A stretch of 64,000 nucleotides of DNA from Acorus gramineus (Eukaryota; Streptophyta; Magnoliopsida; Acorales; Acoraceae). The translations under genes were made by a program, and so were the position numbers. The notes under the pieces are model-generated. The model was not told the DNA's origin, searched no databases, and saw only the letters and a list, made by a program, of their open reading frames with translations. Positions 6,473-64,000 of this stretch are shown here, piece after piece. The stretch covers positions 24,159,774-24,223,773 of the forward strand of contig CM060850.1 in NCBI GenBank assembly GCA_030737835.1, read 5' to 3'. Numbering within the stretch: position 1 is the first letter of the stretch; each line of letters opens with the position of its first letter.

Positions 6473-6645
6473 TGGGCCCAACGGCCCGCTTGTAGGCCTG
6501 AAGCCTGGGCCTGACCCGGCGGGCATGTGGATAAGGCACCGACCTGGTTTTTTTTAGTCCTGGGCCGGCCCGGCCCGTTGCCGTTGCCTATTCGCTCCGC
6601 TAACGGACCCGCCGACGTCTTTCCCAATCAGATCCCAAACCCTAG
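6473..6645 (+). promoter_or_regulatory. RPS17 promoter: site II motifs and telo-box
   Basis: Three TGGGCC site II cores lie at 6473-6478, 6506-6511 and 6561-6566. A telo-box (AAACCCTAG) lies at 6637-6645. In plants, site II plus telo-box is the well-known signature of ribosomal protein and other growth genes (TCP and Telo-box binding factors). No TATA box is seen at a suitable distance. All four motifs lie within 260 bp upstream of the RPS17 ATG, which supports a live promoter. Confidence 0.7.
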
Positions 6646-6731
6646 CCGCAGCTGCCACACCCGGGCACGCAGGGCGAAGCACGTTAACCAAAGAAGGTAG
6701 AGAAGGCAAGGCAAGGCAAGGCGAGGAGACG

Positions 6732-7160
6732 ATGGGGCGCGTGCGCACGAAGACGGTGAAGAAGTCGTCCCGTCAGGTGATCGAGCGGTACTACTCGCGC
6801 ATGACCCTCGACTTCCACACGAACAAGAAGGTCCTGGAAGAGGTGGCGATCATCCCCTCCAAGAGGCTCCGCAACAAGATCGCCGGGTTCTCCACCCACC
6901 TCATGAAGAGGATCCAGAAGGGCCCCGTGCGGGGGATCTCTCTCAAGCTCCAGGAGGAGGAGAGGGAGAGGCGCATGGACTTCGTTCCCGACGAGTCCGC
7001 GATCCGCATCGACAACATCCAGGTCGACCAGGAGACGCTCGACATGCTCGCCACACTCGGCATGGCTGACCTCCCCGGCGTCGTCAAGCAGGAGGCAATC
7101 GCCGGTGCTATGCCCTCCGTTCCCCCCCGCGGCGGCGGCGGATTCCGCAGGACCGCCTAG
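6732..7160 (+). CDS. RPS17: 40S ribosomal protein S17 (eS17)
   Basis: Structural protein of the cytosolic small ribosomal subunit, eukaryotic/archaeal family eS17. The 142-aa reading frame is intronless. It starts [20 protein letters not shown] and continues with the diagnostic [20 protein letters not shown] and [19 protein letters not shown]. The tail is the plant-type C-terminus rich in Gly and Arg ([12 protein letters not shown]). Length and the N-terminal Met-Gly-Arg match plant eS17, so the start at 6732 is secure. Codons are strongly GC-ended, in sharp contrast to the flanking AT-rich DNA. Site II and telo-box motifs lie just upstream, and a foldback element ends about 290 bp before the ATG. 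The frame is intact, so this is a probable functional copy rather than a pseudogene. It is not a clear retrocopy, as no poly(A) tail or target duplication is visible downstream. Confidence 0.97.
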
Positions 7161-16899: not shown

Positions 16900-17991
16900 T
16901 CAATCACTAGAAGGCACGTCACCAAAACCATCGAACAAGCAAGGCGAGAATGGAAACACACAGTGCGTCCCCACCCTACACACCGCTTTCATCCTCCGGC
17001 TCACGAGATCCACCGAGAACACCACATCCATCACCCCCACAAAAACCACGCCCGAGCTCGGATGAAACGCCACCGGCGTCATCTTCATTGGGAAAACCCG
17101 CACCATATTCATCAAATCCAACGACAACAACCCACAACTCAAATCCCCAAACCCCTCCACATCGATCCTTAGCCGCTCGACCCACTCGCTCCTCTCCTTC
17201 AGCACCCACACCGTGAGTTCGCGTCCGTCGTGGTTCGCGTAATGAACGCGCCCTTCCGATTCTCCCAAAATCTCTTCCAATCCCACGGATTCGGATCCGG
17301 GCAACCCGATCATCCAACGCTCCCCCGTTTCGACGTCGAACCTTACCACGTGACGCCGCGGCGGGAGCAGCACGTGTAGAGCTCCGTCTGCGAAGACGCT
17401 GTGCCGAAACATCAGTGGTTGTGGTTGTGGTTCGTCCAACACTCTCTTCTCAACCCACCGACCGGTGCCCGAATTGAAAACCGCAACGTCTAAAGTCGAT
17501 GAGAGGTTCGTGTAGTGAATGACTTGGAAATAGCGTGGCCTGCGGGGGTCGAAAGCGAGCACAGCCATGGTGAGTGTTGTCGGGTGGGTTTCTTTGGGGG
17601 GTTTTGGGAGAGTGAACCATGTTTTCGTCATCGGGTTGCAGAGATGGAGAGTGGGTTGTGGACCCGTTTTGGGGAGGCAGAGGAGCAGTCCGTTGCGGCT
17701 GTCGAGGATTCTGAGGTCGGATCCGCACGGCATGAAACCGAGGTCGATGTCGAAGAGTCCGTCGTAGTCGTCGGTGTCGTCCAAGAGACGAGCGTAGCTG
17801 TAGTCGCTGTTTTGGTGGTAGAGGAGGCCGGATGCGGGTAAGGTTGTTGTTGTTGCGAGTTTTCTTGAAGCCTGGAAGAGGAGGTCGTGCCAGTGTTTCG
17901 ATACGCAGCGGAGCTGGAAGAGGTTCTTGATGGGCAGTTTTGAAAGCACTTCGATGAGGATATCTTGGTTGATGTTTTCTAGAGAAGCCAT
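16900..17991 (-). CDS. F-box protein with F-box-associated C-terminal region
   Basis: Predicted substrate receptor of an SCF (SKP1-CUL1-F-box) E3 ubiquitin ligase. The gene is intronless and encodes 363 aa. The F-box occupies roughly residues 5-45 (INQDILIEVLSKLPIKNLFQ, then RCVSKHWHDLL), which is the SKP1-binding motif. After it come DSRNGLLLCLP and LCNPMTKTWFTLPKPP, then RYFQVIHYTN and VAVFNSGTGRW. This pattern is characteristic of plant F-box-associated (FBA) proteins. I see no Kelch or LRR repeats, so the substrate cannot be inferred. A TATA box lies about 60 bp upstream of the ATG. The coding strand is moderately GC-rich and the antisense strand carries several long shadow ORFs. The large plant F-box family evolves fast, so orthology is not assigned. 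Confidence 0.9.
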   Translation of the reverse strand: MASLENINQDILIEVLSKLPIKNLFQLRCVSKHWHDLLFQASRKLATTTTLPASGLLYHQNSDYSYARLLDDTDDYDGLFDIDLGFMPCGSDLRILDSRNGLLLCLPKTGPQPTLHLCNPMTKTWFTLPKPPKETHPTTLTMAVLAFDPRRPRYFQVIHYTNLSSTLDVAVFNSGTGRWVEKRVLDEPQPQPLMFRHSVFADGALHVLLPPRRHVVRFDVETGERWMIGLPGSESVGLEEILGESEGRVHYANHDGRELTVWVLKERSEWVERLRIDVEGFGDLSCGLLSLDLMNMVRVFPMKMTPVAFHPSSGVVFVGVMDVVFSVDLVSRRMKAVCRVGTHCVFPFSPCLFDGFGDVPSSD

Positions 17992-18047
17992 GGATAATGG
18001 ATCTCCAGATGATTTTGGGCAGTGGAAGTTGATGGATAACCAAAGGG

Positions 18048-18058
18048 TTTATATATAG
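18048..18058 (-). promoter_or_regulatory. TATA box of the F-box gene
   Basis: On the minus strand CTATATATAAA lies 57-67 bp upstream of the ATG (17991). This predicts a short leader of about 25-35 bases. Confidence 0.6.
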
Positions 18059-43019: not shown

Positions 43020-46000
43020 CTAAAAGAGAGAGTTGTAGGTGAGCAACGTTGCAGCAATGGAACCGATGCAGATTGCCAGGGATGGGAGTAGTGTGATGTT
43101 CAAGAGCTTGTTCTCGCCCAAGTATCCGGCCAACGTTATTGTACCATCAGCAACCACGCGAGCAAGAGTGCCAGCTTCCGTAGACAATAACCCTCCATTG
43201 TATGTTCCACGAGCTAGCCGAGATGACATGACTCGAGAGAGGAGAGATAAGTTCACACCTGGATCGGGTCAAGAAAACAAAGGTTAGTGTCACAAATCAA
43301 TCTTGGCAAAATATTTTGGCATCCTATGTTAAATGCACAACCTTAATTCGAACGTCTACCAGATATGAATGAGAGATGAGGAATTTAGACAGGTGGACAC
43401 CATGGATTGAAAAAAACCTAATTGTAAGACACGTTCTTCTAATTTGTTCCAGTTTCTACACCACAATGCAATCCATCATCACTTTTTAAAAGTGAAGATC
43501 AATCCTAGGTAAGCTATGGAGCCCACAGCAGAAACTGGGATGGTGGTTGTAAAAACAAGATATTATTACATTTTCTACAAGAAATTTCTGCATAGCCTCT
43601 CATGGTTAGAAAAGTTATCAAGGCTTCAAACACTCCTATAATGTCAGATATTTGAGCCTAAATTTCTCTTACATACACCCATTGATATCAAATTTAGCTC
43701 ATGAACTGAAAAGAAAGAAACACATACGCCTCAATGTTTTAATTAACTTGGTAGATGTTAGACTGTAGCATGACAGTTAGAAAACTTCGCAAAGTAATGT
43801 CCACGTCAAAGTTTCAATGAGGAAAAAAAATAAGCGAAGATCAAAATAGAAAATTTCCAATTGCTCTCTATTTCCAATTGCACCAAGGGAACACAAACTT
43901 GAAAGAAGTTAGATGTGAACTGGTAGTGTTGAAACATGGCTTGGAAATATGCCCACCTCCGCTGCCGATGTATAGTTAATTGATAGAGCAGTTATGCAAG
44001 TGGCACAGAGAATAGTGAAGATGGATGAGAAATTCCAAATCCTTTGTGCAGAATATGCAAGTAAGTGGACAAACTATGAGCCAGGGTTCATTGAGGAGAT
44101 TTTCTGAAATGATGTGGAATATGTGTGTAAAAGGCATTGATAGATAAGGCAGTGAAATAGTTAAATCTAAAAGACAAATATGAAGCTCTCAGAACAAGAG
44201 AATTTAAAATGGTAATACAAAAGAAATAACTATTATGTATCGGCTATTCCAGATTTCCAGGCCTACACAGCAAGAATTTCAGAAGCAGAATCAATCTGTA
44301 CTTTCATTATAAATATTATTGTAGAACAAGAGCTACAAGGGATGGAAGATGTTGCATTAACAAAACATATCCAGAGCATCAACTGGTTTATAATAAATGA
44401 TGAAGAAACAAGTGAAGAATGCCCTACGATGACGGAAGGACGATTGGGTTATAGGTAAGAGAATTGACATTTTCAGGGTTTAGAGCTTGGCCAAGAAAAA
44501 GCAACACACCAAAGGAAAGCACACAATTAACGAGCAATGTATATGACAGTCTACATAGAGCAATAATGTGGCAGTCATGCACTAAATCTGAAAAAGACAT
44601 GTGAAATATACACATCCAATCCATGTTAAGGATTTGTTGAAACAATAATGTAGAATGTAGCTGGAAAGGGGTGGAATAATGGGATCTTTTACCACTCCTT
44701 GCACTTAATATATATACAGGAAGAAAGACAGATTGGAAATGTAACTATGAAGAACAGATGCAAAAGAGGTGCACAAACCAATATCAGTCAGAAAGTTGAA
44801 AAATGAAATGTAGATGTTGAAACAGCCCAAGTAAACGAGTCTGAATTAGTCCTACCCTACCTAAGCACACTAAAATGATCTGATCACCAGTTCTAGAACA
44901 CCCTAAAACCTCTAAATACCAAGTAACGTTGTATCGCTTTAGGTGATATACCCAATGCAACCTAAAGTTGAATCAAGAATTCAAAGTTTCAATTCCAAGC
45001 CCACTGAGCCCAACCCGGGTCTCTGAATGTGAATAACATCAGTCAGTTTTAATGACATGAAAATGGTGATTGCAAAGAGAAAATGAGAAAAAAATATGTA
45101 TCTCGTTGTTATACAGTTGAAGAGGCATAAAAAGAAATGTTTAAATAACCACTGGAAACATTAATGGGCCAAAGGACAGACAAAGGAGTAGGCAAAATTT
45201 AAGGAAGTATACATATATAATATATATTAAGAATAGATTACAAAAATATCACATGAAATATATAATTCTGAGTAGCAAACAGTTAGCATCAGATAATCAA
45301 AATTTGATAACTATTCTTAACCCCTGATCAATTCATAATTTACCTTCAAGAACTTCGGAAAATACAAATGTAATAAGCGCTGAGCAGATGTATTGTGGTA
45401 CAGAGTAATGGCTGCTGATATTGAAACTTAGGACTATACCAATGCACACCATAATTTCAGATGCCAGTAAAATTTGCCTGCAAAATTATCAACCCAATAA
45501 GAAGATCAGAAATGAGGCAATGGAAATTTTTTTTTGAAAATAAAGCATGTAGCGCAGGGCACATTCATGCATCAAGAATCAAACAAATTATAGAGTTGAT
45601 GATACAGTACAAAAGAAATAAGAAACAAGAAGGAAATAATTGAATTTTGATTTAGATATTTTAGTGGATGACATATTAGGCATTTTAGGTTTTGTTTCCC
45701 TGCTATTTCTAATGTTATGTTTGTAGCATTAAGATCTATTTCTCATTTCTTTCCTGCTTTTTTGGAATATTTTAAAATGTCACTTTCTTTACAACTGCTG
45801 GATTAGCCGTGGGACTTGCTTCTATAGTAAGGGGCCAATTAATGTTTACTTGGGTGCCTTTTAGTGGTTACATGGTTTCTTCAGGTTCTTGAAGTTGTTT
45901 CAGGACCTTAATATATTAAGTACCTTGGTTAGCTGCACAATAAATGAAAATTACAGTTATTTTTCAGGATAGTAGGATCCGTAAATGACCATTATGAAAT

Positions 46001-49000
46001 GGAAGCTATTAGACACAACCCCGTTTACAGCCCTTGCGTGCACTACACACCCGTTTTGATTTTTTTATAAAAACAGTAAACCTCATCTAATGAGGTATAT
46101 ACTTTTTTAAAATATGAAATATATACTCCAATGAATTGTATGGACCCATTTTTAGGAAATATATATTATTGGACAGCTATCGACTTGTAGTATATATGCA
46201 CTCAAAGAGTTTGACATATATATATTTCACATGGTGAAAAATAAAGTCATATACCCAAGTTTGCATTTTTCCATGCTCGGAAACGTAAAAAAAAAAAACC
46301 AGAGTACTATCACAACTTAAGTGCCAAAACTTTCACAAGGAAAACACAATTAATGAAGAGTAACACTATTTGGCGTAAATACTGTAATGCTGAAATAGTG
46401 ATAGAACTCATAAAGCCATGATATCACATAATGCCACATGCCTAACAATCTTTCTGAAGTCGACCATAAAAAAAAGTCCTCAATGGAATCTTTAGTAAGA
46501 AAAACACAAAGAAATTCATCAACCTAGAAATTTCTCTGTCAGAATTACACTACTCATGGACAAGGTAAAGGGCTCTTTTGGAAATAAAACACTATATAAC
46601 CAACAAATGAAATTATACTCGGGCTCCATCTAAATAAAAGAATCTGTAGAGAATTATTCACTAGGCTATTAGTTCATGGTTTCTTGTTGATCAGCATTAC
46701 GCTTCTGAAATATAGATCAGCATAAATACATATTTTCAATACCTGTCTTCAAACATGTTACTGATGTAGCTTCCAACAATGATATTCACAGGAAGAACTG
46801 TGAGACCCAGGCATGCAAGAAATATAGCAACAGAGCTAGTTGTCCAATTAAAATAATACGTTGTAATGACACTCGACTCTGAAAGCAAAATCTCCATAGC
46901 ATATTTGAGCATGAAATAAATCAACAACTGGACCTGCAAATGTGGAAGAAATCAATTGAAGAAAACCTATATTAATGCTACATCATCATTATGGAATAAT
47001 AATAAACATCTATAGTGTGCTAAAAGAAGTACAAGAATGAGTTCATTTTGCATCTAGGTGTAACAAAAATTTAAAAAAGATGTATTGGAATCAATAATAT
47101 GAAACAACATTCCAATTCAGATGTGATGGAGGATGGTGCAAATCGGATACCAGCCCATAACTTGATTAACTTTACATTGGAACCAACACTCAAGATATCC
47201 CAGTACAGAACATGCATGGAGGAGAAGGCCACACATGTAACACAGAGTGCATTGAACGTATATTTTTCACAAATTTGTAAATATGTTCATCACTATATCT
47301 ACTTAATGTGAAATCCCTTGACTATTAAAAGAAATCCAATGAGTGGCCAAGTTCTTTCTGTGTGTGTTAAGTCCTGTCTCAAAAGCATGGGATTTTTATG
47401 GGGCATGTCTCAATCCACCCTATTGTCAGAGTGATTAGATTGATTTGACAGTTAGGTTGAAGAACTAATATAATTTGATATAGGGGAATGCTAGATCCTT
47501 GACCAAAATCAGTTGGCAGTTTGGAAACTGCATTGAAGGTAGAAGACCAATCATGATAGAATAAGTGAATCATCCTTTAATCTATCAGTATTCTGTGAAC
47601 TAACATAATCAAGGATGCAAACAAACCAAATAAAGAAAATAGGCATGAATTTACACAAGAAACTCTATCAGAAATCCGATCCTAATTCAAGCACTAGGCC
47701 TACCCTACCTGATTCTATTAACCAAGAGCCATGTGTCATAGGACACCAATGGTACTATTATGTGCCATGCCCTCCATAAAAAATAGGGTGAATTGCCCAA
47801 ATACCCCTGCAGCCAACCCCTAATATTTCTTCTGCCCCTGCCTTTTAAAAAAAAAAAAATTTACCCCTGCAGCAAACACCTAATTTTTTTTCTACCCTCA
47901 TCCCTTTAATTCCCCCAGCCCCACAAAATCGCAGTTTCCCCCCTGTAAGTGCATATATGTTTTCTGTGATTTTTGAAACACAAAATGTAATTTCTGTAAA
48001 TATTATTTATAAGTGCATTACTATGCATGTCATGCAAAAATGCTAACTTGCAAAACACTAGAGAAACATACATTAATGCATAATACTTGAAAATATTTTA
48101 TCACAATAAATACATCAAAGCACTTGAATTCATCTAATGTTTGTATTCCGATGTTCTTTTCCTACCCTAATGAACTAAGATGTTGTATTTAATCTGATCA
48201 TCTTCATGTCATTTTGGTTGAAATCAAATCCATTGTTACACCTTCGAGTTAGCAAACGTACATCATTAGGAAGAAAGCGCAGTTCAAACTATATTAGAGA
48301 TGTAATAATTAGTCAAACACTCAAATAAATCAAACACCAACAAGTGTGTACTTCATGACAATATAAGAACCACATATATATTAATGTTATGCATTAATGT
48401 ATGTTTCTCTAGTGTTTTGCAAGTTATCATTTTTACATGACATAATATGCACAGATAATATTTACAAAAATTCCATTTTGTATTCTCTAAGCTACAGAAA
48501 ATATATATGCACTCACAAGGGGGAAACTATGATTTTGTGGGACTGGGGGAATTAAAGGGATGAGGGTAGAAAAAAAATTAGGTGTTCGTTGCAGGGGTAA
48601 ATTTTTTTTTTTCAAAAGGTGGGGGCAGAAAAAATATTGGGAGTTGGCTGCTAGGGTATTTGGGCAATTCACCCTAAAGAATATTGCTTGATGTCCTTTC
48701 TCCCCAATTCCACCTATAAATCCTCATTCACACTATCTCTAGCATACAATGCATATACACATACCATAATAAACAATTCTTTCTCATTCTGTCGTCCATT
48801 GGTGCTGTTCTTAGACTCCTTCCAAAATGTCCAATTGTAGATCCACAATTCAACAATTCATTCATCTCAAAATTCTCATATGCACAGCACTCGCTGATGC
48901 ACGGGGGATCCAGGATAAGAGAGAGGACTCGGAAATAAGAATGAAAAGGAGAGTAGAATTTCACTACTCTCAACAAAAACCAAAGAGAACTATAAGTTGT

Positions 49001-52000
49001 GGGTGCTAGAAGCTTCGTCAAACAACTAGATATGAAAATGAAACTTGGATGTGTCTCCTTTCAAACAATAGGTCCCTTTATAGACTCCAAACCTATTTCA
49101 AGTTGGTTGATAAAAATGATGCTTGCTATAACAGACTTGGAAGTTCGTTACAGTTGACAGCTAATAGTTGAAATTTCCAGAGCCGAAAGTTATCAATAAA
49201 GGTTCATCATTGATATAGTCAATCTGGATAAGATCTAGCCAAGTTAGTGACAAGGTTTGTTGGTCAATGATTAGACAATCTGATCCACAGGTTATAATAG
49301 TCCTAAATCCAATATCAAGTTGCTTAAGTCGGTAGGGTCCACGGCTTGAATCAGTGTTGAGTACTTTAAGCTATTCATCAGCCTGGATTGCATTTCCTTA
49401 TAATGGTGTCGCCTTCCATGCTACCTTCTCCTTTAGCCGAGCATGATGATTTGCAACATCCTCTCCAGATTAAATGGAGTTGTGCTAGAACTAATATCAT
49501 CTTTGCTTTCCAGAGAGCATCCATGAAAGGAAACAAGGTGCTTTACGTTGAAAAAGTCCATGGCCTAGATTGCGAGGGTAAATAGGGCCAAAGCGTTGTT
49601 GTTGATGTGCTCAAGGATCTTGAAGGTTTCATGCTTTCTCTTACTTAGATTTTCATATTCTCTAACAGGAGAGCAATCTTCTGGAACACCACCCGCACCA
49701 AGTCTCATGGTTAATGATGAGGAGATGCCGATGTAGATTGGTCTTTTCTGTGTACTCCTCAGTGAATTGTCAAAGTTCTCCTTCAAATATTTGCGGATGT
49801 AATACAAATAGTTCATAAGCTCTTCTACCTCCGCATGAGGCCACCTGGGTACTACCGTAGAAAGCATCTCTATGGGGCTTCTCATATTTTCACCACATAG
49901 GACATGGAATAAACAGAATCCAGTGGAGCGGTTGATAGTGTGATTGTAAGTGAACTCCACGTTGTAATGCCAATAATCTCATCCTTGAGATCACCATCAA
50001 TTAAGCATCACAATATTTTTACTAGGATTTTCAACCACCTCAATTTGTCCATCGGTCAGGAAGTGATATGCATTGCTATATTGGCGTTGTGGTAAGAGAC
50101 AATGAGCTCGGGTACACTGTGTAGTCAGTGTATCTATCTAAAGTACAAGTGTGCAATGGCGCTTCAAAGGGGTCATTTACTGAAACAACCCACACAAATA
50201 TGGAGTCGACCATGCTGGCTTCGTGGTATTCCAAGCATGAAGTCCATACTCACATTCCTATGGTTGCATTAGGATGGGGAGAGGGGTGTAAGCCGTACTT
50301 GGTAAAGCTCTTTAACTATCTTGCAGATGTGGTATCTTTCAGCAAAATAGTAAGACATAACACCACAGATTGTGCCAAAGGAAGATTGACAGCCAAAGCA
50401 TACGTCTTGTCCCTCCCAAAATGTCCTTCACCATGGAACTTTTTCATGATGCAGTGCCAGAATCCCCCTGGGGATACACAAGTGACTTCCCTTGACGAGG
50501 AAAACTCCCACAAGTGGATATTCATCCCTCTTTCGTGTCTTGACATCCTCAAGAACAAGTGCAAAGGCTGAGTTTGATGCGTAGAAGTCAGAGACCCATC
50601 ACAGTGGCCTCATTCTGCACTTGTTTGTTAGAGAAGTGGTGGAATTTGAACCCAGCCCTCACGGTTGCAAATAATGTTATCAACCATTGAGCTGTATGTC
50701 CAAGCACCATTCATTTTGTAGCTTAGAGCATCCGCAACCATGTTTTCAGCGGTCGGTATGTAGCAAATGACAAATGAGAATTCATGTAGGAACACCACCC
50801 ACTTTTTTTTTTTTTTAATATCGGAGAGACCCTCCATGGCTGACCTTACAGTCGAGCTGAAAAGGCTACCTCTACCTGTTTGCCTTAGTCCCATGGAAAA
50901 TACTTTCGAAACATCGCTAAAAACGTCCAATATGGGTCATTGTAAAGGATCTCAAAGAGTTTTTTGAAGTCAGGGAGGCAAGGACAAGAGCCTTTGTCGA
51001 CAACCTCGTGATTAGCAAAACCTCTCTTCCACCTTATTAGGGTTTCATGTGATGTTCCACTTGTTGAGAAGAACTATTTAAGGAGCCATTATAGTGGAAA
51101 GGTTGGGAACAAGCATCTAGTAGAAGGATGCAAACTCGAAAAAACTTCAGACCTGGTGGATGTTTGACGGAGATGATCAATCCCAGGAAGAGGAGATGCT
51201 CTACACTGAGAGCCATTTTTTCAGAGCCTCATACAGTTTGCAAGTATTCAAGGTGGGACTCGTGATCACAACTACAAATCATGGTGTTGTCAAAGTAGAC
51301 ACAACAAAACTTACTGAATGGATAAATAGCTAGAGTCCTTGATTTCTCATTCTCATGAATGCCTCTGAAACATTAGATAGCTCAAATGGCATCATTATCC
51401 ATTCATATCACCATTTTTGTGTTTTAGAAGCACAACAAACTCAGATTTTATGGTAACCTGATTGAAGATCCCACTATTTGGTCCCCCCCCCCACAAAAAA
51501 AAAAAAAAAAAAACAAAGCTTGCATTTACTCACAAGGGAATTTCAATCCAATCATATCCATAAACTTAAATGATATCCTACTTCCTTATTTCTTTCTTCA
51601 AGTTCCTTGATTGTCCATTTTCTCAACAAGAGAGAGAGGGAGAGAGAGAGAGGGAGAGAGAGTGAGAGAGAGAGAGAGATGTTTTTCGATTGTCCCTTTC
51701 ATATTGAACCTAATAATTTGTGGAAGAGGTCACCATCCACCTTACACTTTACAAGTCTCCCTAACCAGAAAGTCAAAAATTTATGAATATAGTAGGGGTT
51801 AGCAGAAAACCTATTAAATTCAAGTCTCTTCAGAGATATTAAAGTTCCCCGTGAATAATTTTAATTGAAATCTTCAACTGCATCATTACAAAAATTGATA
51901 ACAATCAGGGACAATAAAAAAGAAGGAACATGGGAGGTATCACTGTGATTTATTGACAGGAAAAAATTGTAAAACCATTACAAGGGTATGACTAGGATTT

Positions 52001-55000
52001 ATTAACAGAGAAATCTTCATATAACCATAACACATCCATCTTTCTATGTGAATAAAACACCTCTTCTAAGATTTAGAAGCTTCTATTTTTTCATGAAATG
52101 TGCATCATTGAAGCAGTAAGATTTTTCCTTTGAAGTGGTTGAGTAACAACAAAAGTAGATGACAGGTGTGTGTGTGTGTCTGCGTTTGTGTGTCTACATA
52201 TATATATATGCACCTATAGAGTTGGACATTTATGAAAATTTAAATCACACCTTCACAGATGGTGTAAGCAATCTGTATGCTGAAGCTATTGATGTTGCAG
52301 GTTTGCGTGACTCTTCGGGAGCTTCTTCACTTTCATCATACTCCGGGTCTCCATCTTCATCTTGTTTCTTATCTTCTGAACTTAAGATCAAAGGTTGCCT
52401 CAGACCATTTTCTAATCCTTCATTCTCTGTAGTTCCTGCTGTTAAAAAATGGTAAATAACACCACATTGAACATTTTCTCAAAAAAAATATATATTGAAC
52501 ATTCAATCATTTGAAAAGTCCACATCAATTATGGAAATTAGATAAAAAGGCACCTGAATCAATTGGAAAATTATTCTAAAGAGATTATCTTGCATACACA
52601 ATATAAGTATGGGTATTATTTGAATTAGTAATTGAAGTTCCTGCTCGCAATATTACAGATATAAAAATTCTATAGGAATCATGAAGTAGACGGTCGGATT
52701 GAAGGTCATGAACAGAAGACCTTAGCCTGATGATAGGGGAATAAAAGGAGAACCAGGAGTCAGACTCAATAGAAAATGAATAAGCAGAACTGCCTTAAAA
52801 GAATCTATAGATCATATTCAATATCGACATAATCAATTTGAAGCTGGAGTGATTTTTCTGATTAATTTAAGTTAAGAAGATATTGTCCACCATACTTTTA
52901 TAAGAAGATGGTCAAATATACAAAATGAAATTATTCATGAACATATGGTGTTAGAAGTGACTCACCAGCGTCAACTTCCTCAGGCACAACATGGTCCTCA
53001 GTCTCACGATGAGGCTCTTTAAACGAAATCCACACCCAAAGTAGATAGACAAGCCAAGCCAAAGACATGACCCAACCAGGTAGGGTAACTTGATTAAATG
53101 TCAATGCATAAATCTTGAAATTGGTTTGAAGTAAGCCAGCTAGGGCGGGACCACAAGCCATTCCAAGAGCACTGGCACTAACAAAAGCTGCAGAAGCCTG
53201 CATGCGTATTTTCAGAGGTACACAATCACTGATGTACCGCCGGTTAACAGCTCTTGCAGAACCTAATCTGTAGTAAATGACAGCTCAGTATATTAAATAT
53301 ATGTAGAATATCCACTTCTTGTTAAGAATTACTTTAAGCTAATAATAAAAATAATAATATTCAGTATAAAAAAAAAAAAGTGGTACATAGAAGAGAGACA
53401 TAAAAACTGTTGCCAACAAGATGTTGCAGCCTTTGACTTGAATGTCTAGAATAAAATTTTTCTTCGACTATACGGGCCCAAAAGGGCAAAAATCATGGTG
53501 CAGTCAATTAAATATAAGTTGGCGTTTCTTACAATGTCACTATAAAGTAAATAAGAGACGCTTCTAGAAATGTTGATTAAAGAGAAGGCAGTGATGACCA
53601 ATGGGACTTGGGAACCTTCAATATCAAGTGTTGCAATATCTAAAATACATGGCATGCAGTAAAGAAGAAGACATAAAGTTGAGACGAAATCCACAACCGG
53701 TCCTCATGCATGGATGGAAGTCTAACTATGCCAAGAATGGGAGGCAGACCTCTAATGTATGTCAAGGTCAAGAAAATGTTTACTTTGATAGCTTACTCTA
53801 TATGATGTTGTGGAAAGATTATAGGAAAATGATACATTCAGCCTTGTTTGCGGCCCCGTTTAAATCACGTAGTTAATGAAGTAGATTATTCTATAAAAAA
53901 ATGATGTACATACTCATACAAATTGAACGCATATTTTTTTACGTTCTTCATAATGAAGTATATACTGAGTTAGTAGATTATATATTGCATTAGGCAATTC
54001 CATACATTGTGTTAGTGACATGGAGAATCTAAAGGGGGCCAAAAAAGGACTGAGTTTCCGCTGCCTACTTGACCTTTTTTTAACAAGCAAGACCACCTCT
54101 CCTTTAGCTGTGACTCTGCCAAGAATGGGATTGGGGTTATGAACTCATAATCATGGAATCGAAACCAAGATACAAATTACAGTATCATGAGCACAATTTG
54201 CAAGCGCACTTGAAATTTAACCTTTTTTTTCAAAAATGGTCATCACGTGCCAACCGATTCATGATTGGCTCGTTCCATATACATAGGCACCTCAGGTGGG
54301 TAATTACAAACACAGATCTTTTGGTAGAGGCACAAAAGAAAAGTTCTCCCAGAAATAACATTACGGAGAATTGTATTTGTAAGAGGAAGAAAACACAACA
54401 GGAAACCTGCATTTTTTTCATAATTATGGCAGTACCACACAACTAGCATTAACTTCACAAGCAATAGTCAAAATTAATTAAAATCAGGTGATTGATGAAC
54501 ACGTCATCTACATCACATATAAATGAACTTATATGATTTGAATAGAACTATGGTAATAAACAAGATTAATTAATTTCAGATGATTGATGAACACATGCCT
54601 CATGCTTCATATATAGATGAATTGCTTACCCGCAGAACAAACGGCCAGCTATTAGAACTGTTAGTGAATCAAGATCATAAGCGAGTGCATACATGGTGTT
54701 CCCCAGTAGAAGCACAATACTGCTGAAAACAAGAGGTCTGAAGTATGATTTATTTGACCAAGCACTAAAATATATTGACGAGAACACCTGAGCAACAGCC
54801 ATCGACCCAATAATGACACCACAAACTGTTGCAGCAGCTCCAAGGCTTAGTGAGTAATCATCAGCTGTTGGGACAATGATATATGTGTTGACCATATAGA
54901 GGAAAGTGTTTGCCAAGTTCAAGACAAGAGACATAAAATGGTATCTTTCTTCCTCAGCTTGCTCCTCTTGTGGGGTCGGTATCTCTTCTGGTTGAATAAT

Positions 55001-58000
55001 AAGAGCATGTTGCCCTAAGAACCCAAGGAAATTTGTTGAGTGTGTTAGCCTGTCCACAGCTGCTTTTATAGTATCAATGACAGGGTCCTGCAATTTACAA
55101 GATAAGGGCATTAGTAAAAATAAAGCTCAGATTATAGCATTTGCAAACATTATATGATGGATATTTTAATTCAATCTAAACCCAGTTACGGGTTTGGAGA
55201 CAAACCCTCAAACCAAAGCATGCTTAATAAAAGTTTAAGAAATTCTAAGTCAAAGGTACAAGGAGAAATGACCTTAAAAGTAACAGATGGTTGGTCATAA
55301 ATTGATAAGTAGCTCCCCTGGCGATCTTGAATATCAGCAAGATTGCGAGATAAAGCCCCAACAACAGCCCCTATGCCCTGCATGGTACATTATAGTGGAG
55401 ACAAGAGCTTCTAAGTTGTATGTCTGACAATAAAGACATCCTCTCTCAAGTTTAAGATAGTTCTGGTGCTACTTGCATCAGGAATATAAAAAAGAAAATC
55501 TATATCGAAGCTCAATCATAAATAAGAACTTACCACGTGCTTGAACACTTGTTGTAACTGAGAATAAGGATGATTTGACCGACTAGACACATAATAATCT
55601 GTGAATCTATAGCCACAGCGTTTATCAAATTTCTTCAATATTTTCCTCAAACCAGTAGCATTTATCTCTACAAAGTGCAGAAGTTTCAAAAGATCTCGAC
55701 CAACTTCCCTATATGCCTCACGTAGTTCAGATATCTGAGATATATCTGGCTGCTCTTCTAGAGCTGCACGCTGCTCTCCTAATTTATCAATCCTGCCCGC
55801 AAGCACCCCTTGCTGTTCCAACACAAACAGAACAATCTTCTCGATCTGGAATAATGAACACATAATGGGTCAATAATTTAATTTGACAAATAACTCAAGA
55901 GAAAATAAAAAAGAATTCCAATTTACAGGAATGGTTCCAAAAATTTTCTTGGAGTCCCTTCTCAAAGTCTCAAACAATCCAGATTTGCCGATGTTGCAAG
56001 AAATTCAAGAAAATAAAACAGATATTTTGTGAAAAATAACAATCCTGATAAAAAAAAAATCCGACAAGCAAGAAATCTGTACTTTAGGAATGGCATAAAT
56101 AATAAACCTGTGATCTACTCATTTTATACAGATGTCAACTTCACAAACTATAAAAGATCCAACAATGCTAGCCTTCAATCCTGAGTTACTACAAGAAATA
56201 TCTGGCTTGATTTTGTCCTGCCATAATTCACTTATACAACATGATATTGTGGGATGTAGAATTTTAAACAGCGCATGACAACAGGACAATCTGCAAGTTA
56301 TATCTTTTATTTTCCTTTTTCATATTTGAGTTATCACTATCACCTCAGTAAATGAAGGCCTGTGGAGATAAAAATCCATGCCATTGCCATAGCACATTAC
56401 TTCATCTCAGTGAAGGACAGAATGCTAAGAACTTCTTGATTTCTAAGGAGTCTCACAGATGCATTAAATTTTGATAGTTATATAATATATAACTTCATAT
56501 GCCTAGATATTTTGTGAATGCATCCCCCAATCTCCCAAAAAAAAAAAAAAACCAATAAGGGAAACGGAAAAAGAGAGAGAGAGAGAGAGAAATGATAGAG
56601 GATAGAAAACCAATTCCACCAGTCAGACATGCTTATTTCGATGTATCCAGAAAGACTGTGTGCACATGTTTGTGTGTGAGGGAGAAATTTCAATCAAGTG
56701 TACCTGGGTATCTAGCATCCTTGAGAACTCCTTGAGGACATGGCGTCGATCTTGTCCACTTACTTGAATCTGCTGAGCATATTGTTTTACTTTCTTCTTC
56801 ATTAGCTTGTAATTCATATAGTACCTGGGAAAAAAAATAAATTGTAAACATTTGATAAGCTTTCATACACCTTGAAATTGAGGATAAATATTGAAAGGAT
56901 ATGATGCACGGAGAAACACTTGTGATAACTATACTAAAATTTCCCTCCTAGTGACTTCTGAAGCAAAGACAAATAATATAATAGAAAAATTGGAAAATCA
57001 ATGCCAATCGAACGGTTTGGTTCAGCTAAAAGAGAAAATTCTCAAACCTTCTAAAATAGTTGAGAGGACATAGGGAATAAAATGAACAACTGCTCCACAT
57101 GGGAGAGTTATTAATTCAATTGCTTGGGGCCCCATTTAATCATCGCACAATCAAACATGTAAAAATAATAGAAATAGAAATTAATCGGGTGGAGGTTTAT
57201 AGAGTCAGTCTAAAAAAGATTTCAAAGTACTTATGCTCCTTTGCACAGGGTATGATTTTAAAATATGGTTATTGAAATGATTATAATTGTGCAAAATTTG
57301 TTGTATCAATCTAGTAACAGAATCACAGTGTTCTGTAACTATACTGCAAGTTGTGAAAACAAACCCATATATTTCCTGGAATATTCAATGTGAACTATAA
57401 ATAAGCAAAATTAAGAATAGTACATAGAGTAAATTTCTTGTAATTTGTCATACACGTCCCAAGAACATCACTTTAGTCACAGTTGACTGGAAATCCTCAA
57501 AAAGATAATAACATGTTTGTGAATACACCTGATATATGCATTTGAATGGCATCAGTCATGATAAGATAAATTTTGTAAATGAAGTGTCATATCTGACGTC
57601 CCAGAGAAAAATTAAATTTATTGCAGTAAAGTATTTTACCTCTAGCTTTCAGGTAAAAATTCCAATTTTTCTATTATCTTATCCATTGTGTTGAAAATCA
57701 GGCTTTTTGAACGGTCAAGTTCATCTAAGGCATATTTCCAACAATCAAGCTGTTTTCTACTTGGACATTCACATGGTAATGAGATCCACACACACACTGT
57801 CGAATAAAAAATGATGTCAACAAACACGCATTGCTCTAAGACACTAATAGTGGCCAAATGAAAAATAGTAACAACAGTGCCAATGAATTGAAGAGGAAAT
57901 GTCATGTGACTTGCATGTCCTGGACAGCCATAAAATTTATAGAAATTTAGGTGAGAGGAAGAAACTTAGGGGCGGAATGGTATAGACTCTGGAGAAGAAA

Positions 58001-58616
58001 TTGTATTATGGTTTGTCATTATCAATTTACAAGTTCATTTCATTGATTTTGTAAAGGAGATATGGATGGAAAAAGAAACTGTCATGTTTTTCCATCAAAT
58101 GCCGCTTCAGTAGACCCAAAAATCTTTGATTTCCATCACCCAATATGATGGAGGGGGGCATCTGAATAGCCAATAACATAAAAGTAGCAAAATTTTACTC
58201 AATGAAGATAGAGCATCCTCAAAATTATCCTTGTAGAATAAGCAAAAGCTAAGCAGCAATCCAGATATCTTGTTTCCTCTGAGGCACAGTCATGAAGCTA
58301 TATCATGCAAGTTTTTAAAGTTTGAGCTCAGCCAGTCTTCCACAGTACTTTTTTCGCTGTAGATAATGTATCCAGGCAGTACATTCAAATATGGATGACT
58401 CAGATCTACACATGCTTCTGAGTATACTGTATGCACAGATTCATGTATAAAGGCATGTATGTCAACATGGATACATATATGCATGTGTGTATGTATCAGC
58501 TAAATCTCTTGACCCAAAAAAAGCAGTAATAAAGGAACACTGAAAGAACAACAACATACATACTTCTGCCATTCCGGAAACTGGCGTTCTTTGAGCTTCT
58601 TTCCGAAAGCAACCAT
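43020..58616 (-). CDS. PHT5: SPX-MFS vacuolar phosphate transporter (PHT5/VPT type)
   Basis: Moves inorganic phosphate into the vacuole; the cytosolic SPX domain senses inositol pyrophosphates. Ten coding exons, minus strand: 58616-58564, 56824-56704, 55845-55534, 55377-55273, 55087-54630, 53267-52966, 52438-52251, 46933-46743, 45477-45344, 43258-43020. The joined frame is 700 aa with all phases kept, the normal family length. Residues 1-140 are [35 protein letters not shown] (Tyr23, Lys27) and the Lys cluster KILKKFDKR at 126-134. The MFS part begins near 235 ([20 protein letters not shown]), with [16 protein letters not shown] and [15 protein letters not shown]. An acidic loop ([20 protein letters not shown]) splits the helices, and the end is [20 protein letters not shown]. 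Exon 7 has two acceptors 3 bp apart. Intron 7 (5.3 kb) holds transposons. A 772-bp intron lies in the 5'UTR. Confidence 0.95.
46005..46220. repeat. Copy of the high-copy short element in PHT5 intron 8
   Basis: It contains CCTCATCTAATGAGGTATAT, AAATATATACTCCAATGAAT and ACTTGTAGTATATATGC in family order. Confidence 0.5.
47786..48674. mobile_element. MULE-type foldback element in PHT5 intron 7
   Basis: The inverted arms are about 47786-48085 and 48378-48674, and look roughly 90% identical by eye. The terminal sequence GGGTGAATTGCCCAAATACC is identical on both ends. The 9-bp flanks TAAAAAATA (47777-47785) and TAAAGAATA (48675-48683) differ by one base. It is 889 bp with no transposase. As part of the PHT5 pre-mRNA it would fold into a hairpin of about 300 bp. 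Confidence 0.85.
49430..51480 (-). mobile_element. Decayed Ty3/gypsy pol in PHT5 intron 7
   Basis: The minus strand holds polyprotein pieces in correct order. Reverse transcriptase: [12 protein letters not shown], then VYFDNTM in place of the catalytic YFDD (about 51430-51250). RNase H/connection: [26 protein letters not shown] (about 50850-50710). Integrase zinc-binding: [15 protein letters not shown] (about 50490-50400). Integrase C-terminal: [20 protein letters not shown], then [11 protein letters not shown] and [11 protein letters not shown] (about 49960-49490). Frameshifts and stops are many, and the integrase catalytic core is not recognisable. I could not find paired LTRs. It is in the sense orientation of PHT5. 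Confidence 0.8.
51634..51680. repeat. (GA)n microsatellite
   Basis: Imperfect GA/GGGA tract inside PHT5 intron 7. Confidence 0.9.
53845..54055. repeat. Copy of the high-copy short element in PHT5 intron 5
   Basis: It contains TAATGAAGTAGATTATTC, ATGATGTACATACTCATACA, CATAATGAAGTATATACTGA and ATTATATATTGCATTAGG. It is a diverged member of the family. Confidence 0.45.
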
Positions 58617-59467
58617 CTTTCCGTGAATTTAGCGGACCTACAAAGTGTAAAAAGAACCAACAAAGAAAACAAAAGCAAAACTGTCTGTCAAGATCATCAT
58701 GGCTTCATAAAATTCCACCTATATAACAAAAGAAGATGTGCTAAAAATGAGGAGAACATCAGAATCAGATATCAAATATCAAAATTAAATTTTAACATAC
58801 CAAACATATGAGAATCATTCTCAGCTAGATTAAATTTCATTCATAAAAAGGAATTTCTGTAAAACAAATCCAATCTCCACCTCTCAAATTTCAAACCCCA
58901 CGAGTAATTCATTTTCACATGTGTAGATATTCACTGTTCCATCTATAATTTAAGTTCACCAACCACACTTACATCTAAGATCAGCTTCCTTCCTTCAACC
59001 ACAAAAAACTCGTCCACCAGATTTGATTCCAAAGATTCATCATTTCCACACCCGACATGTCTATCTCTGTTTTCCAACCACACTCATCACGAAAATCTAA
59101 GACTCGTTTGTCTCATTTCATCATTCCTCGCTCTCTTTATCCCAATCAATACACCACACCATGCTCCTTTCAATCATGTACAAAAAAACAAAATAATTGA
59201 AAGAAAGAAAGAAAAAAAAAACACTTCAAAATTCTGGATTCCCAATCATACGAGGCCAAGAATCGCTCGAGTTCTCCACATATAAAAGCCCCATTCATTT
59301 GCGAACAGAAAAAAAAAAAAAAATCCACGTCAACCATAAACACAAGACTTCATAATCCGAATCCGTAAAAATCCTTCAACAACACAAAAACAGAGACCGA
59401 AAGCATTACCTACAATGGAATCAAAACAACTCCGTCGTTGAAGACGCTCCGGTTCGGTCGAAACGAC

Positions 59468-59479
59468 TTAGATGATCAT
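59468..59479 (-). promoter_or_regulatory. Three-codon upstream ORF overlapping the miR827 site
   Basis: ATG ATC ATC TAA on the minus strand is the only ATG in the distal leader (59411-59660). All its bases lie inside the miR827 target. It could reduce initiation at the main ATG, or it may exist only because the target sequence contains GATGATCATC. Confidence 0.6.
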
Positions 59480-59488
59480 CAACAAACG
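59468..59488 (-). promoter_or_regulatory. miR827 target site in the PHT5 5'UTR
   Basis: The + strand reads TTAGATGATCATCAACAAAC plus G, so the PHT5 mRNA carries its complement. miR827 (remembered sequence UUAGAUGACCAUCAACAAAC plus U, Arabidopsis form) would pair at 19 of 21 positions, with a C:A mismatch at position 9 and a mismatch at position 21. miR827 is known to target the 5'UTR of PHT5/SPX-MFS transcripts in rice and most angiosperms. Position and strand both fit, so this is a target site and not a MIR827 gene. Confidence 0.85.
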
Positions 59489-59688
59489 ACAGAGACCGAA
59501 ACGGAAAACGCAATAAATCCTCTAAAAATCTTCACAAGAGCCGAAACTGAGTCGGCGGAGACGGAGAGAGAGAGAGATTAGGTTTCTGCGTTTCGGACCG
59601 ACACGAGAACGTATAGAGCGACACTGTGCACCGCCAACAATAACGGATCGCTTGGTTTCTGTGGAGTTTTTTTTCCTTGGGTACCGAT

Positions 59689-59696
59689 GTTTATAG
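59689..59696 (-). promoter_or_regulatory. TATA box of PHT5
   Basis: CTATAAAC on the minus strand, followed downstream by a T/C-poor, GA-rich leader. It predicts a start near 59660. A G run of more than ten lies just upstream (59696-59709). Confidence 0.55.
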
Positions 59697-59858
59697 GGGG
59701 GGGGGGGGGATGTTCTGAGCAGGAGCAGAGGAGAGAGAGAGGGGGGTGTGATTTTGATTTACGTACGTGTTTTTTTATTTTAATTTATTTATTTATTAAT
59801 GATTGATAAGGTGACAATGTTAAAATAATAAAATTTGGGGGATATATATATGCTTATG

Positions 59859-63017: not shown

Positions 63018-63152
63018 GGGAATCCTAGGTTATTTAATTTTGTTTTCGTTTTATTGTCCTCAATAGATGTTGTAATCTCGTTTTATGTATGAAATCGGGG
63101 TAGTAACTGTCTACTAATTACATAAAAAAAAAAAAAAGAGGGAATCCTAGGT
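63018..63152 (+). mobile_element. Short A-tailed retroposed insert with 13-bp target duplication
   Basis: GGGAATCCTAGGT flanks the insert at 63018-63030 and 63140-63152. The insert ends in a run of 14 A. It may be a severely 5'-truncated LINE or a SINE piece. Confidence 0.6.
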
Positions 63153-63578
63153 ATCTTAAAATTTAAATCAAGTACAAAAGGTAAGTAAATCAATAGTTAA
63201 TGTGATTTAAAATTGGTGTCGAATTTTAAATCAAGTATAAAGTACAAGCAACTTTAAATCAATGAAAACTTGGTGTCGAATGGTTTGGGAAAGTTTAAAA
63301 TTTGGTGCAGTTTGTTATGAAGCTTTAATACATTATAATAAAATAATTTGTAAATAATTAAAACAAAAGGTAAGTTAATATCAATAGTTAATGTGATTTA
63401 TATGTGCTATATCATAGTGCATTACACGTGTAATCTCATGTGTTATATCATAGTTTATTTTGTTTTCGTTTTATTGTCCTCAATAGATGTTGTAATCTCG
63501 TTTTATGTATGAAATCGGGGTAGTAACTGTCTACTAATTACATAAAAAAAAAAAAAAGAGGGAATCCTAGGTATCTTA
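63037..63578 (+). repeat. 122-bp perfect direct repeat, 420 bp apart
   Basis: Positions 63037-63158 and 63457-63578 are identical, including the A run and the right-hand flank GGGAATCCTAGGTATCTTA. Sequence between the copies (63159-63456) is unrelated AT-rich DNA with a smaller internal near-repeat (TCAATAGTTAATGTGATTTA). Confidence 0.9.
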
Positions 63579-64000
63579 GAAGATAGGTTTTACGAACTTG
63601 ATATAGCAAGTCAATTAAAATATATTGGAAAAATCTTATTCACTTTTATCCTATATAATATATGAAAAGGAATATCATAGAAAAAATTTTAAAAAAATCT
63701 TGGACAAACTGTAATCAGTTAAAGATCTATAATTGTTTATGCTTTGTATTATACCCCCTCACAAATACGTTTATACAAATGTCCGCATCTATATGTTACC
63801 TCTTTGTATATAATAAGCAATCCTCTACCACGGTAAGAAAAAATATTAAAATAAAAACTATAACATAACCTAGGTGTGGCCACATCTCACATAGGTAAGT
63901 GAATTTGTTCCCTATGAAATAAGTAAAATATTAATAATGATATAAAAAAAAATATAAGTAATTATTAAATAAGTTAACAAGTATATATATATATATAGGG
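63579..64000. other. AT-rich window end, no gene seen
   Basis: AT-rich sequence with no recognised feature. The ORF at 63662-63868 has no domain. Confidence 0.5.

Follow-up and report, generated by a model that had tools for sequence, protein, structure and literature searches.

The miR827 target site in the leader of the PHT5/SPX-MFS gene described here is an ordinary, well-paired member of the miR827-PHT5 module. We consider it highly probable that the module in this plant has undergone corresponding base changes in miRNA and target, such that positions 1-20 of the plant's own miRNA are paired with the target and slicing is to be expected. Compared to canonical plants, position 9 would have changed from C to U in the miRNA (U9 instead of C9) and from G to A in the target. 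By this mechanism, miR827 (UUAGAUGAUCAUCAACAAACA) would bind the PHT5 leader through positions 1-20 during phosphate starvation and the slicer would cut between positions 10 and 11, resulting in less of the vacuolar phosphate transporter. The miRNA is presumably expressed, and the leader presumably sliced, in this plant. Features of the window (i.e., the whole stretch of 64,000 nucleotides analysed) and of related loci elsewhere in the assembly are listed in Table 1.

Table 1. Positions of the modelled PHT5 gene, the miR827 target site and related features. Coordinates without a prefix are those of the window.
Feature	Position	Strand	Details
PHT5/SPX-MFS coding region	43020..58616	minus	10 exons (model), 700 aa; ATG 58616-58614; stop 43022-43020
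Leader exon 1 (modelled)	59410..59700	minus	AG/GTAATG splice signal; stretch common with paralog leader
Leader intron (modelled)	58638..59409	minus	GT...AG
miR827 target site	59468..59488	minus	CGTTTGTTGATGATCATCTAA; own miR827 pairs at positions 1-20 of 21
Three-codon uORF ATG-ATC-ATC-TAA (MII*)	59468..59479	minus	inside miR827 site
Predicted slicing point	59478 (T) / 59477 (G)	minus	AT/G of uORF; plant miRNA rule
Predicted 5' end after cut	59477	minus	G of GATCATCTAA; plant miRNA rule
MIR827-like hairpin, mature 20-mer	C5:26669851-26669870	minus	exact match to PHT5 leader site
PHT5 paralog, gene and leader region (15.7 kb)	C10:16889001-16904700	minus	

The PHT5 gene model was built by hand with GT-AG splicing, with one acceptor picked to hold the frame, and the modelled frame was found to be intact, with a single stop at its end. 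When the 700-aa model was compared to Pfam, matches to SPX (2e-19, 71.2 bits, cut-off 27.8) and MFS_1 (4.6e-24, 85.4 bits, cut-off 33.4) were detected, and a PDB search returned one SPX chain (5ijj, E 2e-11). As judged from its sequence, the gene of the window is PHT5/SPX-MFS. The region 59468-59488 is likely to be within the transcribed leader, as judged from the splice signals of the model and from a segment that is also present in the leader of a paralog; the upstream end of leader exon 1 at 59700 is an arbitrary boundary. Within a 5.3-kb intron of this gene (window positions 46934-52250), translated pieces resembling a decayed retroelement were seen by eye, and upstream of the gene are two direct copies of a 131-nt segment (63031-63161 and 63451-63581) that are 98% alike and 420 nt apart. 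Elsewhere in the window, open frames similar to ribosomal protein eS17 (6558-7157, plus strand) and to an F-box protein (16903-18048, minus strand) were noted by eye.

The plus-strand letters at the target site are TTAGATGATCATCAACAAACG, and the mRNA strand reads CGTTTGTTGATGATCATCTAA. Positions 9 and 21 are the only two at which the site departs from Arabidopsis miR827; the first-pass annotation, which had described a miR827 target in the PHT5 leader complementary at all but two of 21 positions, is thus borne out for the Arabidopsis form. Scanning of the window revealed three further places within the limit searched, each with 6 differences from Arabidopsis miR827. With the plant's own miR827, which carries U9, the site was found to pair at 20 of 21 positions, with only position 21 mismatched. 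The mismatch penalty is 1 with this form and 3 with the C9 form, and the duplex energies are -29.7 and -25.0 kcal/mol, respectively. The next-best site in the gene has a penalty of 8 with the plant's own miRNA and 7 with the C9 form.

The assembly comprises 398.6 Mb in 137 contigs, of which C1-C11 are at least 17 Mb long and eight others inspected are 76-140 kb. The query TTAGATGANCATCANCNAAC was sought in it at up to one mismatch, with very common words skipped. By this approach, the 20-mer TTAGATGATCATCAACAAAC was found to be exact at two places, the PHT5 leader and a MIR827-like hairpin on C5, compared to an expectation of 0.0007 to 0.0036 exact matches in random sequence for the whole assembly. 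At up to one mismatch, three places were detected in total, compared to two for a reversed control pattern; the one-mismatch place was therefore discounted, and only exact matches were counted. Within three mismatches, 194 places were present in the assembly. Other candidates from related scans were set aside: a plus-strand hairpin at the target site (z -1.84, with 9 of 200 shuffles as good) was without a miRNA-like arm there, and a scan with the leader pattern gave two bacterial places among prokaryote contigs, which were taken as chance, and none among viral contigs. No Rfam match at gathering score was detected in the window.

The hairpin on C5 was the sole MIR827-like hairpin found in the assembly. 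It encodes UUAGAUGAUCAUCAACAAACA, with U at position 9, and the 21-mer at this locus is TTAGATGATCATCAACAAACA. Its predicted fold has an energy of -41.8 kcal/mol (z -7.55, with none of 200 shuffles as good). It matches the Rfam family MIR827 (RF03692) with an E-value of 3.3e-6 and 43.1 bits, short of the gathering score, which is 65; a match to this family was also obtained with the opposite strand, at 36.8 bits. P1BS-like motifs (GNATATNC), as would be expected under PHR1-type control of MIR827, were found 210 and 177 nt ahead of where mature miR827 begins, but with eight copies across 8 kb (C5:26667000-26675000, minus strand) they are a weak sign. Within the fold, U9 faces a G in the opposite arm, whereas no partner is present for position 10. 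The simplest and probable route to the present pair is a C-to-U change in the miRNA, accommodated by G:U pairing in both hairpin and target, that was followed by a G-to-A change in the target. This route is proposed because the hairpin retains a G opposite U9, and it would place the change in the miRNA before that in the target.

A text search with a 16-mer of the U9 form and its complement was used to ask where else this form is printed, and all seven papers with a match in the collection searched were found to concern Vitis. In grapevine, vvi-miRC827 is reported on chromosome 5 with U9 and the star sequence TTTTGTTGCTGGTCATCTAGTC (PMC5050227), and the same U9 miRNA is listed as va-miR023 with 9,128 reads (PMC3353164). 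In one report, Vv-miR827 is given 0 mismatches to its grape target and At-miR827 is given 2; the gene is unnamed there in the text available to us, and elsewhere in this report a MYB factor is listed for Vv-miR827 (PMC3145640). The table of this report also has the same 20-mer under Vv-miR529 and Vv-miR827, which is probably a table slip. An NPR4-like gene is listed beside a miR827 form ending in U in the accessible portion of another study (PMC6896114). The named grape miR827 targets in these sources thus differ from PHT5, which counts slightly against the matched change within a miR827-PHT5 module. Two further Vitis miRNAs, searched in the assembly at up to two mismatches, gave 0 places each. 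A text search with 16-mers of the other arm of the C5 hairpin matched three papers on yeast and one on Murraya. The C9 form is printed for Murraya miR827, and a 5p read listed alongside this C9 mature read is identical over 19 letters to that arm of the C5 hairpin; a common hairpin origin of the two reads is not stated in the part of that text available (PMC8747174). For barley, C9 follows from a published probe (PMC4919326).

The first-pass annotation had also described a minimal uORF, ATG-ATC-ATC-TAA, embedded in the miR827 site, and this uORF is present at 59479-59468. It has the sole ATG of the modelled spliced leader, as counted from the arbitrary start at 59700, and in the spliced model its stop is 79 nt upstream of the main ATG. 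When canonical miR827 is complemented, the frame obtained is ATG-GTC-ATC-TAA (MVI*), compared to ATG-ATC-ATC-TAA (MII*) for the plant's own miRNA. At the uORF, the position-9 change thus converts ATGG to ATGA and Val to Ile, with loss of the G at +4. The suggestion that the base change helps to create the uORF is consequently false, as the canonical complement already spells a closed frame. More generally, the uORF would come with the site, as the complement of miR827 positions 1-12 spells ATG-NTC-ATC-TAA; given miR827 pairing, the uORF is bound to exist, and its presence is no separate signal. In random 21-mers, a closed frame of this kind is found in 3.4 to 6.0% of cases, depending on base composition. 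With T in position -3 and A in position +4, the uORF start is in a context that is weak by general rules, and by the same rules losing the G at +4 weakens it further; the MII* uORF is probably weak. Plant miRNAs direct slicing between positions 10 and 11, and the predicted cut is within the start codon of this uORF.

A second PHT5 gene on C10 was matched by 9 of 18 stretches at 74 to 92% identity. Its upstream sequence aligns in part with the leader of the window, with CGTTTGT common at the site and divergence after. In the 15.7 kb of the paralog, no miR827 site was detected (the best place has a penalty of 8 with either miRNA), and no ATG was present in its putative leader. From these sequences, one PHT5 copy may be under miR827 control and the C10 copy free of it. 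For this single pair (n=1), the site and the uORF are absent together, and the comparison extends no further.

Several other readings of the site were weighed against these data. In a reading built on the first-pass annotation, a true C:A mismatch at position 9, close to where the cut falls, would reduce slicing and move PHT5 control toward translational repression, and the same base change would give rise to the uORF. A mismatch of this kind exists only when the site is paired with C9 forms of miR827, as in Arabidopsis, rice and Murraya, and the unusual features were described because the miRNA of another species was used for the pairing. In this plant there is no mismatch at position 9, because its own miR827 carries U9 and the target A is paired with it; the C9 form was not found in the assembly within one mismatch, and the canonical complement already contains the uORF, with G at +4. 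The argument for weakened slicing and more translational repression has thus lost its basis, and we regard this reading as extremely improbable. What stood of the annotation is a miR827 target with a minimal uORF in the PHT5 leader, and what fell is the mismatch and the creation of the uORF. The annotation had left its claim dependent on whether the miR827 of this species pairs here, and the miR827 of its own hairpin does so at positions 1-20. In another reading, for which the modelled nature of the leader speaks, the site matches by chance or as a relic and is untranscribed or uncut in this plant. This is made very improbable by the exact 20-nt identity with the plant's own hairpin at the leader of a PHT5 gene, which is far from the chance expectation given above.

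With regard to the uORF, it may serve as a working second layer of control, in which ribosomes on its ATG would occlude the miRNA site and compete with the slicer, or in which translation is lowered when miR827 is absent. The sole leader ATG belongs to the uORF, its stop is 79 nt ahead of the main ATG, and the predicted cut lies within its start codon, all of which speak for such a role. By contrast, the letters of the uORF are dictated by miR827 pairing, its start context is weak by general rules, and in the one paralog, the putative leader of which is without an ATG, the uORF was not retained without the site; thus, a second layer of this kind appears quite unlikely. A related proposal, which we also hold to be unlikely, is that the start of the built-in uORF coincides with the slicing point so that translation and slicing are mutually exclusive, with the position-9 pair having changed together, perhaps separately in grapevines, such that pairing and uORF were both preserved. 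In the portions of the literature on miR827 and uORFs available to us, no description of a uORF within a miR827 site was found. Any plant in which PHT5 carries a miR827 site would allow this constant coincidence of uORF start codon and slicing point to be examined.

Taken together, these results favor a conventional miR827-PHT5 module in which miRNA and target carry corresponding changes at position 9. The claim of weakened slicing is removed, and the case illustrates why pairing should be assessed with the miRNA of the species from which the target comes. The matched change, together with the G:U pair that the hairpin retains, provides a small, testable case of co-change between a miRNA and its target.

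The module itself is known from other plants. In barley, degradome analysis indicated that miR827 cuts the 5'UTR of SPX-MFS1 (PMC7941915, as seen in part), PHT5 homologs are given as miR827 targets outside Brassicaceae and Cleomaceae in the section available of a review (PMC11062440), and in Arabidopsis overexpressing miR827 the PHT5;1 transcript is reported to be lowered (PMC8091714, likewise in part). Similar to the module of rice, barley and other angiosperms, a near-perfect site was found here in an SPX-MFS leader, together with a MIR827-type hairpin in the same genome; the features in common are thus the SPX and MFS domains, near-perfect pairing of the leader with the plant's own miRNA, and the MIR827 hairpin. 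The difference from the canonical module is at position 9, with U in the miRNA and A in the target here, compared to C and G. Grapevine miR827 is closest in this respect, with all 21 mature letters identical to those of this plant, U9 included, and with a G opposite U9 (by eye) in the star sequence that is printed (PMC5050227, in part); by contrast, its star arm departs from that of this plant at 5 of 22 letters, and PHT5 is not given as its target in the text available. The uORFs of PHO1, OsNLA1 and GmPHF1 are likewise in the leaders of phosphate-homeostasis genes, whereas the uORF described here is inside a miRNA site and its letters follow from miRNA pairing.
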